Below, piece after piece: positions 39,483-44,538 of a DNA stretch of 50,625 nucleotides. The stretch is taken from positions 43,766-94,390 of the forward strand of contig NZ_AZDG01000008.1 of NCBI RefSeq assembly GCF_001434665.1, written 5' to 3'. Source of the stretch: Companilactobacillus tucceti DSM 20183. GTDB lineage: Bacteria > Bacillota > Bacilli > Lactobacillales > Lactobacillaceae. The position numbers were made by a program, and so were the translations under genes. The notes beneath the pieces were generated by a model that searched no databases, was not told the DNA's origin, and worked only from the letters and a program-made list of their open reading frames with translations. Positions within the stretch are counted from its first letter, which is position 1; each line of letters opens with the position of its first letter.

Positions 39483-40374
39483 AGTACAATTAACTTTTAA
39501 CGAACCAACAAAATCTCGTTTGGACAATTTTGTTAGCGAAAATTTAAATGATCAGACAAGATCACAAATTCAAAAATATATTAAAGAAGGAAACATCTTA
39601 GTAAATAGTAATATTGTTGAAAAAACCGGTGCTAAATTAACTTCCGGCGATGTAATTGATATAACTATTCCTGATGAAAAGCCCATTGAGGCAGTTCCGC
39701 AAGATATTCCACTTGATGTTATATATGAAGATAGTGATGTATTAGTAGTTAATAAACCACAAGGAATGGTAGTCCACCCGGCTGCCGGACATCCTGACCA
39801 TACGCTAGTCAATGCAATTTTATATCATAGTAAAATCAATGATAACGATATCTTACGTCCAGGTATTGTTCATAGGATCGATAAAGACACTTCTGGTTTA
39901 TTGATGGTTGCAAAAAATGATTTGGCAAAACAATCTTTAATGAAGCAATTGAAAGATAAAACCAATTTAAGAGAATATCTAGCAATTGTTCATGGTAACT
40001 TCAAGGAGACGAATGGTAAAATCAATGCTCCAATTGGACGTTCTAAAAAGGATCGTAAAAAACAAGCAGTCGTTGACGATGGACGTTCAGCTGTTACTCA
40101 TTTTACTGTTTTAGAACAGTTTGACGAATATTCTTTATTAAGATTAAAATTAGAAACTGGAAGAACTCATCAAATAAGAGTTCACATGAAATATATTGGA
40201 CATCCAGTTGCAGGTGATCCTCTTTATGGACCTAAGAATACTTTACAGGGAAATGGACAGTTTCTACATGCCCAAAAATTAGGGTTTGAACACCCAAGAA
40301 CTCATAAATGGCTAGAATTTTCAATCGACCCGCCAGAAATTTTTCAAGAAACTTTGAATAAACTGCGCAGTTGA
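39463..40374 (+). CDS. rluD: RluD-type 23S rRNA pseudouridine synthase
   Basis: A 303-residue RluA/RluD-family enzyme. The S4 RNA-binding domain is at about residues 15-65 and the catalytic Asp in VHRIDKDTSGLL (D140). Other family motifs are VVNKPQGMVVHP and GRTHQIRVHM. The listed GTG start at 39463 overlaps lspA and has a poor Shine-Dalgarno. No ATG, GTG or TTG occurs downstream before the S4 domain, so the start may be this GTG or an unusual codon just after AGGTGATC. Its stop codon overlaps the -35 of the pyrR promoter. Confidence 0.93.
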   Translation: MINISTKVQLTFNEPTKSRLDNFVSENLNDQTRSQIQKYIKEGNILVNSNIVEKTGAKLTSGDVIDITIPDEKPIEAVPQDIPLDVIYEDSDVLVVNKPQGMVVHPAAGHPDHTLVNAILYHSKINDNDILRPGIVHRIDKDTSGLLMVAKNDLAKQSLMKQLKDKTNLREYLAIVHGNFKETNGKINAPIGRSKKDRKKQAVVDDGRSAVTHFTVLEQFDEYSLLRLKLETGRTHQIRVHMKYIGHPVAGDPLYGPKNTLQGNGQFLHAQKLGFEHPRTHKWLEFSIDPPEIFQETLNKLRS

Positions 40375-40397
40375 CAGTCGTAGCTTAGTGCTATAAT
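40371..40397 (+). promoter_or_regulatory. promoter of pyrR-carA-carB
   Basis: A TTGACA (40371-40376) and TATAAT (40392-40397) are 15 bp apart. A TGC before the -10 makes an extended -10 that may offset the short spacer. The -35 overlaps the rluD stop codon. Transcription would start near 40404, giving a leader of about 72 nt. Confidence 0.8.
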
Positions 40398-40412
40398 CTG
40401 AAAATAAGTTTA

Positions 40413-40997
<585 letters not shown>

Positions 40998-41018
40998 TTT
41001 GAAGGAGTTCCTTTCAAT

Positions 41019-42107
41019 ATGAAACGATATCTAATTTTGGAAGATGGAACAGTATTTCCTGGTGTTGGATTTGGATCTTCAATAATTACTACTGGACAGT
41101 TAGTTGTTTCAAACAATAGAACTGGTATTGAGCAATCAGTAACTGATCCTGATTCTGAAGGTCAAATTATAGCATTTACCGTTCCTGCAATAGGATTATC
41201 TGGAATAAATAGAGACTTCTATGAATCAATTAATTCACAATGTAAGGGTGTAGTTATAGGTTCATCTAGTTCAGCAACCGTTGATGGATCAATTCCTTTT
41301 GGTGATTGGATTGAAACACTTGGAATCCCTGGAATTAAAAATGTTGATGTAAGAGCTTTGTCAAAACATATATCTGAACACGGCGAAATGAAAGCTAGTA
41401 TTATGGATACTCATGATGAGCATGCAATTGATCAGATCAAGGCCTTAGTATTGCCACCTGATCTTGTAAAGCGTGTATCTACCAAACAATCTTATCCCAA
41501 TCCAAATATGGGATTAAAAATGGTAGTAGTTGATTTGGGATTGAAATACTCAATCTTACGACAACTTTCATATAGGGACTGTAATTCGGTTATTGTGAAT
41601 TATAATGCTTCACCTGAGGAAATTGAAAGTTTACATCCGGACGGAATCATTTATTCAAATGGACCCGGTGATCCAACTGACCTTCCAAATACAATTGAAA
41701 ATATTAAGGTACTGCAAAAAAAATATCCTATTCTAGGAATTGGATTAGGTAATTTATTAATTGCATTAGCAAACGACTGTAAAATCGAACCATTAGACCA
41801 ACCTCATCACGAATCATCCTTAGCTGTAAAAGAAGTGGCCAGTGGGAAAATTGATTTTGTTAATCATAACCATTCATATACAATTGATCCTAAATATATT
41901 AGCGCTTCTGATTTTATCGTAACTAATATCTGTGTTGCTGACGGTAGTATCGAAGGTATGCGTCATGAATATTTGCCAATTATGTGTGTCTTATTTGAAC
42001 CTGAGGCAGCTCCTGGCCCAACCGATGGTTATTATGTTTTTGATGAATTTATTGATTTAATTGGTTCAACTAAGAACCAGTATGGAGGTGTTGATCGGTG
42101 GCAATAA
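41019..42107 (+). CDS. carA: CarA-like carbamoyl-phosphate synthetase small subunit, catalytic residues lost
   Basis: A 362-residue protein that aligns by eye over its whole length with CarA/PyrAA. The N-terminal CPSase small-subunit domain has YLILEDGTVF, GQIIAFTVP and GIPGIKNVDVRAL. The C-terminal class I glutaminase domain keeps YSNGPGDP. The glutaminase site is dead by sequence. The nucleophile position reads PILGIGLGNLL, with Gly242 for Cys and Asn for the following His. The catalytic His position reads VLFEPEA, with Glu327 for His; Glu329 is retained. The frame is intact with a good Shine-Dalgarno (GGAG), so it is not a decayed pseudogene. It cannot supply ammonia from glutamine. Its role is unknown. 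Confidence 0.85.
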   Translation: MKRYLILEDGTVFPGVGFGSSIITTGQLVVSNNRTGIEQSVTDPDSEGQIIAFTVPAIGLSGINRDFYESINSQCKGVVIGSSSSATVDGSIPFGDWIETLGIPGIKNVDVRALSKHISEHGEMKASIMDTHDEHAIDQIKALVLPPDLVKRVSTKQSYPNPNMGLKMVVVDLGLKYSILRQLSYRDCNSVIVNYNASPEEIESLHPDGIIYSNGPGDPTDLPNTIENIKVLQKKYPILGIGLGNLLIALANDCKIEPLDQPHHESSLAVKEVASGKIDFVNHNHSYTIDPKYISASDFIVTNICVADGSIEGMRHEYLPIMCVLFEPEAAPGPTDGYYVFDEFIDLIGSTKNQYGGVDRWQ

Positions 42108-44497
42108 GTGATGTACACAACATTTTAATTATTGGCCCAACGTCAAGTGATAAAAATGTAGATTTATCAACGGCTCTTTACGATACGGTAGAAATACTTC
42201 ATAAGTTAGGATACAAAACATCCATTATTGTTGAAGACCCAACGTCGTTACTATCATCAGGAGAATTTTTGGATCGAATTATCGTAGAAAAAGTAACTGG
42301 AGATAATATTTTAAAATATTTAAATGACTATCATCCAGATGCAATTTTACCAACCATTGGCGATAAAAATGCTCTTGGAATCGTAGCAAGTTTAAACGGG
42401 AAAATAAGTAATATAAGAATTCTAGGAACCAATTATTTGGCCTCATTAGCGACATTTAAACGTGAACTATTCATTAAACGATTGAGTCAAAATGATTTGC
42501 CAGTTATTAATTTTGTTTCTTCCGATGATGAAACAGAAATCTATAGCTTTATTAGAAAAATCGGTTTTCCCATAATTGCTAGACGAAAATATTCTAATCG
42601 TCATTTTAGTGGTTGGACAAATATTAATAATCTGTTTGAATTAGATAACTTTATGGCACTAGAGGAACTAGAAGATACTAAAATTGAAATTGAAAGAAGC
42701 ATTCGTGGTTTTAGTGAATATTCATTTACTGTCATGCGCGATCGTTATGAAAATGCGGCTTTAGTCGGAACTATCGAAGATATTGAACCTATTGGTATTC
42801 ACCATTTGGACTCTAATTTAATATCCCCAGCGGTTTCTTTGAATGACTCTAAATTACAAAAATTACGTAACTATTCTATCAAGTTGGCTCAAGCTTTCAA
42901 TGTAGTTGGCGCTTGTACAGTTCACTTTGCATATAATCATAAAACAAATGAATGCTATATTACTGAATTTATCCCACGCTTGAGTGAGGAAACTAAATTC
43001 TTAGAATATGCAACTAGTTATCCATTAGCAACTGTTGTAGTCGAATTGAGTCTTGGATATCACCTTGATAAGGTCCAACTAGATTCAGGTAGTAATTTTA
43101 ATGGAGCAACCGAACCATTTGTAGATCATATAACCTCAAGATTCCCACTTTGGACTGATCCTAAACAAAAGTATTTGGGTCCAAGTAAAACTTCAAATTC
43201 TAGTATTGTCGTCAATGGATTCAGTATTGAAGAGGTCCTCAATAGAGGTGCTTTGAATGACAAAATAAATGATAATCTTGAGCGATATAACAAATTGCGT
43301 CAATTAAATGATGATGAACTTTTTGAAAAAATTATTCATCCAACTAATTGGATGCTTGATGTATTATTAGAAGCTTTAAGAAGAAAGTTCGAAATACCTG
43401 TTTTATCTGAAGTAACTAGTATTAATGTACCTTATTTAGTGGCACTACAAAATGTAATGGATAATAGTGCGGTTATTCGAGATGACGAAGTTGACGAAAA
43501 CAATATTGAAAGACTTGTTGAATATGGAATTAAGGGTGTCGGCAATAGTAAATTATTGATGAACTCGGATGATATTGTTACTAAAACAGTCGTAAAGAGC
43601 AAACGCTCGATTGGAGCATCTGGACCTGGATTCATGAATCATAACTACTTTGTTACAAGTGGAATATCGAATGATATAGAATTTAATGATAGAAATAAAA
43701 TAATAGTTAGATCTCCTATAATTACTTCCAAAAGAGATATTATGGTTCGCCAATTTGTTTTATTACAACTTGTTAAATCTATCGAACAAAATGGATTAGA
43801 ACCAGTCGTAATAGGGCGTGAACCTTGGACTGCTCCTTTGTCAGTTCGATACAATGTTTTAGAAATAGATGATCCTCATCGTGAAATGAGTGAATTGAAT
43901 TTAATTCCAGAGAACAAAATCTTTAAGATTATCGATTTTTCTAAATTTTGGAACTTGGATACAAGCGACAGTGATAATAAAAATATTTTTCAAATAAATG
44001 CTAGAGAACTAAAAAATGTAAATATTGCCGGCGATACAACTATAAAGGTTATGGTTGTTACTGATGGTAAAAATTACCTAGCACCATCAATTATTTACAG
44101 AACAAAGAAAAATTCTCAAACATACGAAATAAGTGACTTTAACAACTTTTTGAGTGTTGAAAATAAAGATGAAATTTTGACAATTATCAAGCATGAATTG
44201 GATCTATATAAAGAGATAAATATATTTAATTTAGAAATTGTAAAGAGAAATGATCACTGGGTCGTAACTAAAGTTTATGAGGGTATGACTGAAGATATAA
44301 TTAGACATGAATTAGCTAGTTCAGTTCATGTTATTGATACATTAGTAAAATTAATCTTAGGTAATAAGATTGATGAAGGATTAAATCTAGATGAAATTTT
44401 TAAAAACTATGATAGTGATTATCTAGTTACTGTTAATGAGAAGAAATTTAGGTTTATGGATTATGATGAAGTTAATAAACTAATTCAGAGTATATAA
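42098..44497 (+). CDS. carB: CarB-like carbamoyl-phosphate synthetase large subunit, shortened and degenerate
   Basis: A 799-residue protein related to CarB/PyrAB (normally about 1060). Residues 1-380 follow the carboxyphosphate domain (DAILPTIG, SIRGFSEYSFTVMRD, ENxDPxGxH as EDIEPIGIH). The glycine-rich start is altered (IIGPTSSDK), and the ATP loop RPxxxxGGxG is replaced around residues 161-172. The metal-site Q and N become H276 and I292. The oligomerisation region (about 380-500) is recognisable (LLEALRRKFEI). The second ATP-grasp half is reduced to a remnant, and the C-terminal allosteric domain is missing. GTG start after GGAGGTG; 10-bp overlap with carA. Normal catalysis is very unlikely. 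Confidence 0.8.
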   Translation: MAISDVHNILIIGPTSSDKNVDLSTALYDTVEILHKLGYKTSIIVEDPTSLLSSGEFLDRIIVEKVTGDNILKYLNDYHPDAILPTIGDKNALGIVASLNGKISNIRILGTNYLASLATFKRELFIKRLSQNDLPVINFVSSDDETEIYSFIRKIGFPIIARRKYSNRHFSGWTNINNLFELDNFMALEELEDTKIEIERSIRGFSEYSFTVMRDRYENAALVGTIEDIEPIGIHHLDSNLISPAVSLNDSKLQKLRNYSIKLAQAFNVVGACTVHFAYNHKTNECYITEFIPRLSEETKFLEYATSYPLATVVVELSLGYHLDKVQLDSGSNFNGATEPFVDHITSRFPLWTDPKQKYLGPSKTSNSSIVVNGFSIEEVLNRGALNDKINDNLERYNKLRQLNDDELFEKIIHPTNWMLDVLLEALRRKFEIPVLSEVTSINVPYLVALQNVMDNSAVIRDDEVDENNIERLVEYGIKGVGNSKLLMNSDDIVTKTVVKSKRSIGASGPGFMNHNYFVTSGISNDIEFNDRNKIIVRSPIITSKRDIMVRQFVLLQLVKSIEQNGLEPVVIGREPWTAPLSVRYNVLEIDDPHREMSELNLIPENKIFKIIDFSKFWNLDTSDSDNKNIFQINARELKNVNIAGDTTIKVMVVTDGKNYLAPSIIYRTKKNSQTYEISDFNNFLSVENKDEILTIIKHELDLYKEINIFNLEIVKRNDHWVVTKVYEGMTEDIIRHELASSVHVIDTLVKLILGNKIDEGLNLDEIFKNYDSDYLVTVNEKKFRFMDYDEVNKLIQSI

Positions 44498-44538
44498 AAA
44501 ACGTCGAATTTACACTTCAAATGTAAATTCGACGTTTT
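44498..44538. terminator. strong bidirectional terminator between carB and rqcH
   Basis: A perfect stem of about 17 bp (AAACGTCGAATTTACA with its complement) has a short loop and A/T flanks. It serves both convergent genes. Confidence 0.92.

Follow-up and report, generated by a model that had tools for sequence, protein, structure and literature searches.

Behind lspA and rluD in the genome of Companilactobacillus tucceti DSM 20183, pyrR is followed by two genes whose products resemble the small chain (CarA) and large chain (CarB) of carbamoyl-phosphate synthetase (CPSase), and then by a convergent rqcH-like gene. Both products have lost residues needed for catalysis, and we refer to them as pseudo-CarA and pseudo-CarB, or together as the dead pair. 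The locus lies in a stretch of 50,625 nucleotides (contig NZ_AZDG01000008.1, positions 43,766 to 94,390; hereafter the window) of a 2.17-Mb assembly in 51 contigs that is 99% complete; the genus group with which it was compared includes Companilactobacillus versmoldensis and C. nantensis. The features of the locus are listed below in window coordinates, with the promoter-like site and the inverted repeat read from the sequence.

40371–40397, forward strand: promoter-like site, TTGACA at 40371–40376 and an extended −10, TGC-TATAAT, to 40397, with a 15-base spacer
40429–40460, forward strand: terminator-like hairpin (40429–40456) with a T run, a candidate attenuator between promoter and pyrR
40476–40997, forward strand: pyrR, ATG start (NCBIfam NF003548, 277 bits, cut-off 218)
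41019–42107, forward strand: pseudo-CarA, a CPSase small chain carrying C269G and H353E (Pfam, NCBIfam, alignment to E. coli K-12)
42098–44497, forward strand: pseudo-CarB, 799 amino acids, GTG start; first ATP-grasp changed, second part-deleted, allosteric domain absent (Pfam)
about 44498–44537, no strand assigned: inverted repeat that separates carB from the convergent rqcH-like gene and resembles a terminator on either strand

The two car-like genes overlap by 10 bp, and Shine–Dalgarno-like sites precede all three of the pyrR, CarA-like and CarB-like genes; the arrangement given in a preliminary description of this DNA, from promoter to 3′ hairpin, is thus accurate; the hairpin ahead of pyrR is an addition to it. 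Among the 36 genomes of the genus, TTGAC-N-TANNNT is present in 28 leaders, and a hairpin with a T run lies 17–26 nt upstream of pyrR in 32 (it is weaker in L038, beyond the stretch read in L049 and L052, and absent in L068). The position of this pre-pyrR hairpin, behind the promoter in the interval 40371–40476 of the window, is kept across the genus, with a different sequence in the versmoldensis group. Each of the 36 genomes, including that of the window, has a single PyrR gene.

Pfam recognized CPSase_sm_chain and GATase in pseudo-CarA, and CPSase_L_D1 and CPSase_L_D2 in pseudo-CarB, where D3 fell under the cut-off and the MGS domain was not found. Alignment to E. coli K-12 CarA and CarB, compared at residues of known function, revealed C269G, H272N, G313S and H353E in pseudo-CarA and G175R, Q285H, N301I, E841K and N843Y in pseudo-CarB, in which a segment running from R715 to about D757 (E. 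coli numbering) is deleted and the C-terminal allosteric domain is gone. Five of these substitutions (C269G, H353E, G175R, Q285H and N301I) are identical across all 36 genomes. The Cys–His of a class I glutaminase is therefore missing from the small chain in the window and throughout the genus, the first ATP-grasp (carboxyphosphate) site is not intact, and the second, for carbamate phosphorylation, has lost the R715–D757 stretch, E841 and N843. The first site does keep R129, R169, E215, H243, E299 and R303 in 36/36 genomes. These alignments bear out the earlier claim that catalytic residues are lost from both subunits, and the second, normal carAB that the preliminary description proposed looking for is present on another contig (49); normal pairs were found in 32 of the genomes, and the six that we aligned retain C269, H353, G175, Q285 and N301. 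An ammonia-dependent CPSase with a dead glutaminase was rejected, since the second ATP-grasp has disappeared as well, by deletion here and by residue loss in full-length copies.

In homology and fold both chains still match CPSase (Pfam, NCBIfam and AlphaFold2 models). The AlphaFold2 model of pseudo-CarA had a predicted local distance difference test score (pLDDT) of 87.4 and a predicted template-modelling score (pTM) of 0.88; that of pseudo-CarB had a pLDDT of 79.8 and a pTM of 0.82, and its top match in the PDB was the E. coli large chain (template-modelling score 0.78 by query length). The models thus predict that CPSase folds are retained in both dead subunits. Compared with working CPSases (CarA/CarB or PyrAA/PyrAB), the pair shares two homologous proteins, the two-gene order and the pyr-operon type, but differs in the lost glutaminase Cys and His, the damage to both ATP-grasp sites, the partial deletion of the second and the loss of the allosteric domain.

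Both genes are open in 36/36 genomes, and identity to the window proteins in the other 35 is 76–98% for CarA and 61–93% for CarB. We calculated ratios of nonsynonymous to synonymous substitution (dN/dS) by the Nei–Gojobori method for pairs with 0.05 < dS < 1.5, which left out 524 of 630 CarA and 619 of 630 CarB pairs. The median was 0.042 for pseudo-CarA (maximum 0.080; 106 of 630 pairs usable) and 0.020 for pseudo-CarB (maximum 0.231; 11 of 630), with 0.009–0.031 in the eight closest pseudo-CarA pairs. Normal genes, compared at larger distances, gave medians of 0.106 for CarA (6 of 15 pairs) and 0.208 for CarB (5 of 15), and the PyrR comparison set yielded one usable pair of 15; with so few usable pairs, a greater constraint on the dead pair than on normal CarA, CarB or PyrR is unsupported. 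The dead pair is under purifying selection. Recent decay was rejected, given the open frames, the same key losses in 36/36 genomes and the low dN/dS. The preliminary description had argued against random decay and had named what would contradict it, namely sister copies with intact residues or broken frames and dN/dS near 1; none of these was encountered in the genus, and the argument is strengthened by a Gly269 CarA in 33 of 40 genera of the family.

Normal carAB and the dead pair co-occur in 32/36 genus genomes, and in the other four (G014, G020, G023 and G025) the dead pair is kept and normal carAB was not found. One of these, G025, which retains pyrR and the dead pair, has pyrB in two pieces (L193; contig 46, 37452–38332). 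The two marks of a regulatory pseudoenzyme, lost catalytic residues and purifying selection, are both observed. HisZ of the short ATP phosphoribosyltransferase is a regulatory pseudoenzyme that serves an active partner enzyme; like HisZ, the dead pair has lost catalytic residues and keeps its fold and selection, but it persists where the normal CPSase was not found.

To describe its distribution, we surveyed one genome per genus from 39 other genera of Lactobacillaceae together with the window's genus, taking every CarA match with E ≤ 1e-40. Genera are coded as GTDB-like groups (g1 and so on; g35 contains a strain called Companilactobacillus by NCBI), and some genomes, including G043 and G051, are incomplete. 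The 33 genera with Gly at CarA position 269 correct the impression that the dead pair is peculiar to one genome; it is a family-wide remnant. In all but one of them (g28, where it was not seen) rluD lies upstream. The same stretch holds pyrR in 28/33, with a permease gene between in 5 of these, and pyrR or a uracil-type permease gene neighbours the pair in 29/33. Among the other genera, g11, g12, g25, g30 and g31 have an intact CarA in the order rluD-pyrR-pyrB-carA-carB, and g33 (Loigolactobacillus), whose locus is cut at a contig end, keeps the CarA Cys but not the His, and its CarB has also lost residues. A scan of named genomes, which overlap those of the survey, found Gly269 in at least 22 of 79 aligned CarA, at least 19 of them from Lactobacillaceae; the bearers among the matches listed include Lactiplantibacillus pingfangensis, Pediococcus acidilactici, Leuconostoc litchii, Weissella viridescens, Furfurilactobacillus siliginis, Secundilactobacillus malefermentans, Limosilactobacillus rudii and Ligilactobacillus salivarius.

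The CarB partner of Gly269 CarA is full length (1,054–1,067 amino acids) in 7/33 genera and 643–901 amino acids long in 26/33, and all seven full-length forms have also lost residues. E299 is Lys in 6 of 8 tabulated short forms, and most other genera have residue losses at the first site. In g21 (L231), a full-length CarB has an intact first ATP-grasp site at the ten residues checked, with a dead second half and a dead CarA glutaminase; this CarB is a possible bicarbonate-dependent ATPase. CarA residues H135, A136, D138, Q139, A142 and V144 are invariant in 33/33 Gly269 genera. A newly gained motif at residues 133–144 was rejected, because the motif is shared with the intact CarA encoded in the pyr operons of g11, g12 and g25, and partly with Enterococcus, and is therefore inherited.

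The less reduced loci point to where the pair came from. Five genera (g10, g14, g21, g22 and g40) have the order pyrR, permease (PF00860), pseudo-carA, pseudo-carB; in g27 a permease gene precedes the dead pair with pyrR absent from the stretch, and in g33 one stands before the damaged pair. In g14, rluD and pyrR are separated by an oppositely oriented gene of the endonuclease/exonuclease/phosphatase family (L233, 7462–8532). The PyrR RNA element (RF00515) was found upstream of pyrR or the permease gene in five of six such permease loci, above the gathering score in g10, g27 and g40 and below it in g14 and g22, with none in g21; in g35 a weak match (34.6 bits) precedes pyrR. Permease loci with the element, set beside reduced loci that lack it, make the dead pair look like the leftover of an old pyr operon that PyrR at first controlled and that later escaped this control. 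The Bacillus subtilis-type order is pyrR-pyrP-pyrB-pyrC-carA-carB and onwards. Compared with such a PyrR-regulated operon, the locus has the same site behind lspA-rluD and the same pyrR, and pyrR-permease-carA-carB survive in the five genera named above, but the biosynthetic genes are absent, the CPSase is dead and the window locus has no PyrR RNA element ahead of it. On comparison of these loci, the dead pair is a family-wide remnant of an ancestral pyr operon of Bacillus type that stood at the lspA-rluD site. In a quick tree, 45 pseudo rows, several per genus, grouped with a support of 92 in the Shimodaira–Hasegawa-like approximate likelihood ratio test (SH-aLRT), and in a wider tree of all genera they were scattered over several groups and the deep order was not fixed. 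A reduced tree was built without E. coli, g9, Bacillus HF117, the two pseudo rows from Streptococcus and three further outgroup rows, eight rows in total; its best topology needs two state changes, and one clade of 32 Gly rows was not rejected (approximately unbiased test, p-AU 0.27).

To compare the persistence of the pair with that of the pathway, we searched for aspartate carbamoyltransferase (ATCase; TIGR00670) in 11 genomes of other genera in which no intact normal CarA was found and in 14 controls. All 14 controls had an ATCase, and none above the cut-off was found in 8 of the 11 (g9, g13, g15, g17, g20, g24, g27 and g34); matches of 109–140 bits below the cut-off in six of the eight were taken to be probable ornithine-type enzymes. 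All eight genera keep the dead pair, and seven keep PyrR, which was not found in g17, whose genome is 87% complete. Seven of the eight showed no second CarA, and g20 has fragments; across the survey, nine genera other than that of the window retain the dead pair with no normal CarA found. In G047, G049, G058 and G061 a nucleobase permease gene has a PyrR element in front of it, in some cases scoring under the gathering threshold. Because the pair is kept in seven genera in which neither a normal CarA nor an ATCase above the cut-off was found, supply of carbamoyl phosphate is not its general role. Nor is tuning of the normal CPSase, and a helper of that enzyme was rejected as the general role, since the pair persists in genomes where none was found.

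Elsewhere in the genus, pyrB, which is on another contig, is preceded by the PyrR element; it is above the gathering score at five of the seven pyrB loci scanned and slightly below it at two. The normal carAB of the window's genome gave no element above that score, and a strong one (63.6 bits) precedes normal carA in one relative, G005 (L253; contig 1, 303483).

The genus Lactiplantibacillus connects the dead pair to a described regulator. Each of the 21 genomes searched carries two PyrR genes, and in 21/21 one of the two lies 36–48 bp upstream of a pseudo-CarA match; residue loss was checked in one of the 21, G072, and in the named L146 and L151. In g38, which represents this genus, pseudo-CarA is 94% identical to its L. 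pingfangensis counterpart and the two PyrR proteins are 64% identical, PyrR1 and PyrR2 sharing about 62% identity. A transcriptome table for L. plantarum lists pyrR2 as lp_1782 and pyrR1 as lp_2704 (PMC7911632), and a second source places pyrR1 in the pyr operon, lp_2697 to lp_2704 (PMC3014895). Since the pyr operon contains pyrR1, the PyrR at the dead-pair locus is, by elimination, PyrR2, described in a third source as the pyr-operon regulator that answers inorganic carbon, where PyrR1 answers pyrimidines (PMC3582564). The dead pair thus stands directly behind the gene for this regulator in 21/21 genomes, but the passages and titles examined describe only PyrR2 and give the downstream genes no part. 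Searches for the tags lp_1780 to lp_1784 returned nothing beyond lp_1782, and no description of a pseudo-CPSase was found in the literature searched.

Loss of catalytic residues together with strong conservation indicates that the dead pair probably has a new, non-catalytic job. On balance we favour, with some reserve, a regulator or sensor in the PyrR circuit. The biosynthetic genes would have left the site or been lost while pyrR, carA and carB stayed and the CPSase chemistry disappeared; pseudo-CarA and pseudo-CarB would assemble as before, hold a small ligand without turnover in the former glutamine site or the first ATP/bicarbonate site and, when ligand-bound, modulate PyrR or a PyrR-dependent step by which pyrimidines are taken up, salvaged or made. 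Among single ligands the best candidate would be inorganic carbon, because the Lactiplantibacillus PyrR at this locus is PyrR2 by elimination. A relic of a bicarbonate-using enzyme linked to an inorganic-carbon PyrR makes a testable sensor model, which we put forward tentatively, as rather doubtful: a non-catalytic CarA–CarB shell that binds bicarbonate and ATP (or else glutamine or a nucleotide) and signals this to PyrR. If it is true, the inorganic-carbon sensor still missing from the PyrR2 response would be the dead CPSase, and an effect on the downstream pair could account for some of the phenotype that reportedly follows deletion of pyrR2 in L. plantarum.

Several observations weigh against such a regulatory role. 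Assembly, ligand and PyrR contact are steps that we infer, and the linkage to pyrR may simply be inherited from the old operon. The preliminary description proposed checking whether that linkage is conserved, as it is in 28/33 genera, but in g3, g5, g17, g27 and g37 (5/33) pyrR is unlinked to the pair. No RF00515 element was found at the window locus (Rfam search, E ≤ 5) or at the six reduced, permease-less loci g2, g13, g15, g24, g34 and g38. The C-part of pseudo-CarB is looser in constraint than the N-half (median dN/dS 0.22 in 26 pairs versus 0.015 in 14 pairs), and g29, with intact CarA copies only, lacks the pair, which is therefore dispensable.

A structural or moonlighting function independent of PyrR would suit the five genera with unlinked pyrR, but we consider it unlikely, with pyrR or a uracil-type permease gene adjoining the pair in 29/33. 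It is quite unlikely that pseudo-CarA or pseudo-CarB joins and tunes the normal CPSase or another nucleotide enzyme as an accessory subunit: normal carAB accompanies the pair in 32/36 genus genomes and the folds are predicted to be kept, but in 4/36, and in nine other genera, the pair is kept with no normal CarA found, so the normal CPSase is not its general partner, although another enzyme could be. The six first-site residues kept in 36/36 genomes of the genus, and the intact site of g21 (ten of ten residues checked), would allow the remaining first ATP-grasp site a new chemistry, such as bicarbonate-dependent ATP hydrolysis; such a different enzyme is nonetheless improbable, given the first-site losses in most other genera, the Lys at E299 in 6/8 tabulated short forms and the lack of an evident chemistry common to all pairs. 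Slow decay of a functionless, fading operon remnant would accord with the pyr-operon origin, the shrinking of CarB from about 1,060 (7 genera) to 643–901 amino acids (26 genera), its loose C-part and the missing pair of g29, but is very improbable and largely refuted by open frames in 36/36 genomes, dN/dS of 0.009–0.031 in the eight closest CarA pairs and six CarA residues invariant in 33/33 genera.

Of the preliminary reading as a whole, the normal carAB elsewhere, the old and conserved pair and the wide pyrR linkage stand; the sensing of a nucleotide or arginine and the partnership with PyrR that it suggested are candidate roles. A CPSase pair dead in both partners and kept across most sampled genera points to an unrecognized regulator in widely used bacteria, some of which have no sign of pyrimidine synthesis, and it makes a specific account of CO2 or bicarbonate sensing by lactobacilli through PyrR2 open to test. 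Family models such as NF009475 score pseudo-CarA above the CPSase cut-off, and annotation-based metabolic models may therefore credit CPSase to organisms in which the dead pair is all there is.

Comparable changes were also seen outside the family. In Streptococcus australis and Streptococcus sp. CF8 a separately placed pseudo-CPSase lies behind pyrR-pyrB (L133, 5998–8816; L154, 6001–8825), with Gly for Cys in CarA and CarB proteins of 577 and 579 amino acids, without the second half, that share 53% identity. In an otherwise ordinary pyr operon of Bacillus sp. HF117_J1_D (L140, 6001–10282), CarA has Cys-to-Gly and His-to-Glu changes and all CarB residues checked are kept; this CPSase is perhaps ammonia-dependent. 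A Robertmurraya metagenome-assembled genome (L147, 5999–7085) has Asp for the CarA Cys with the rest intact, a change that may be real or a sequencing error.

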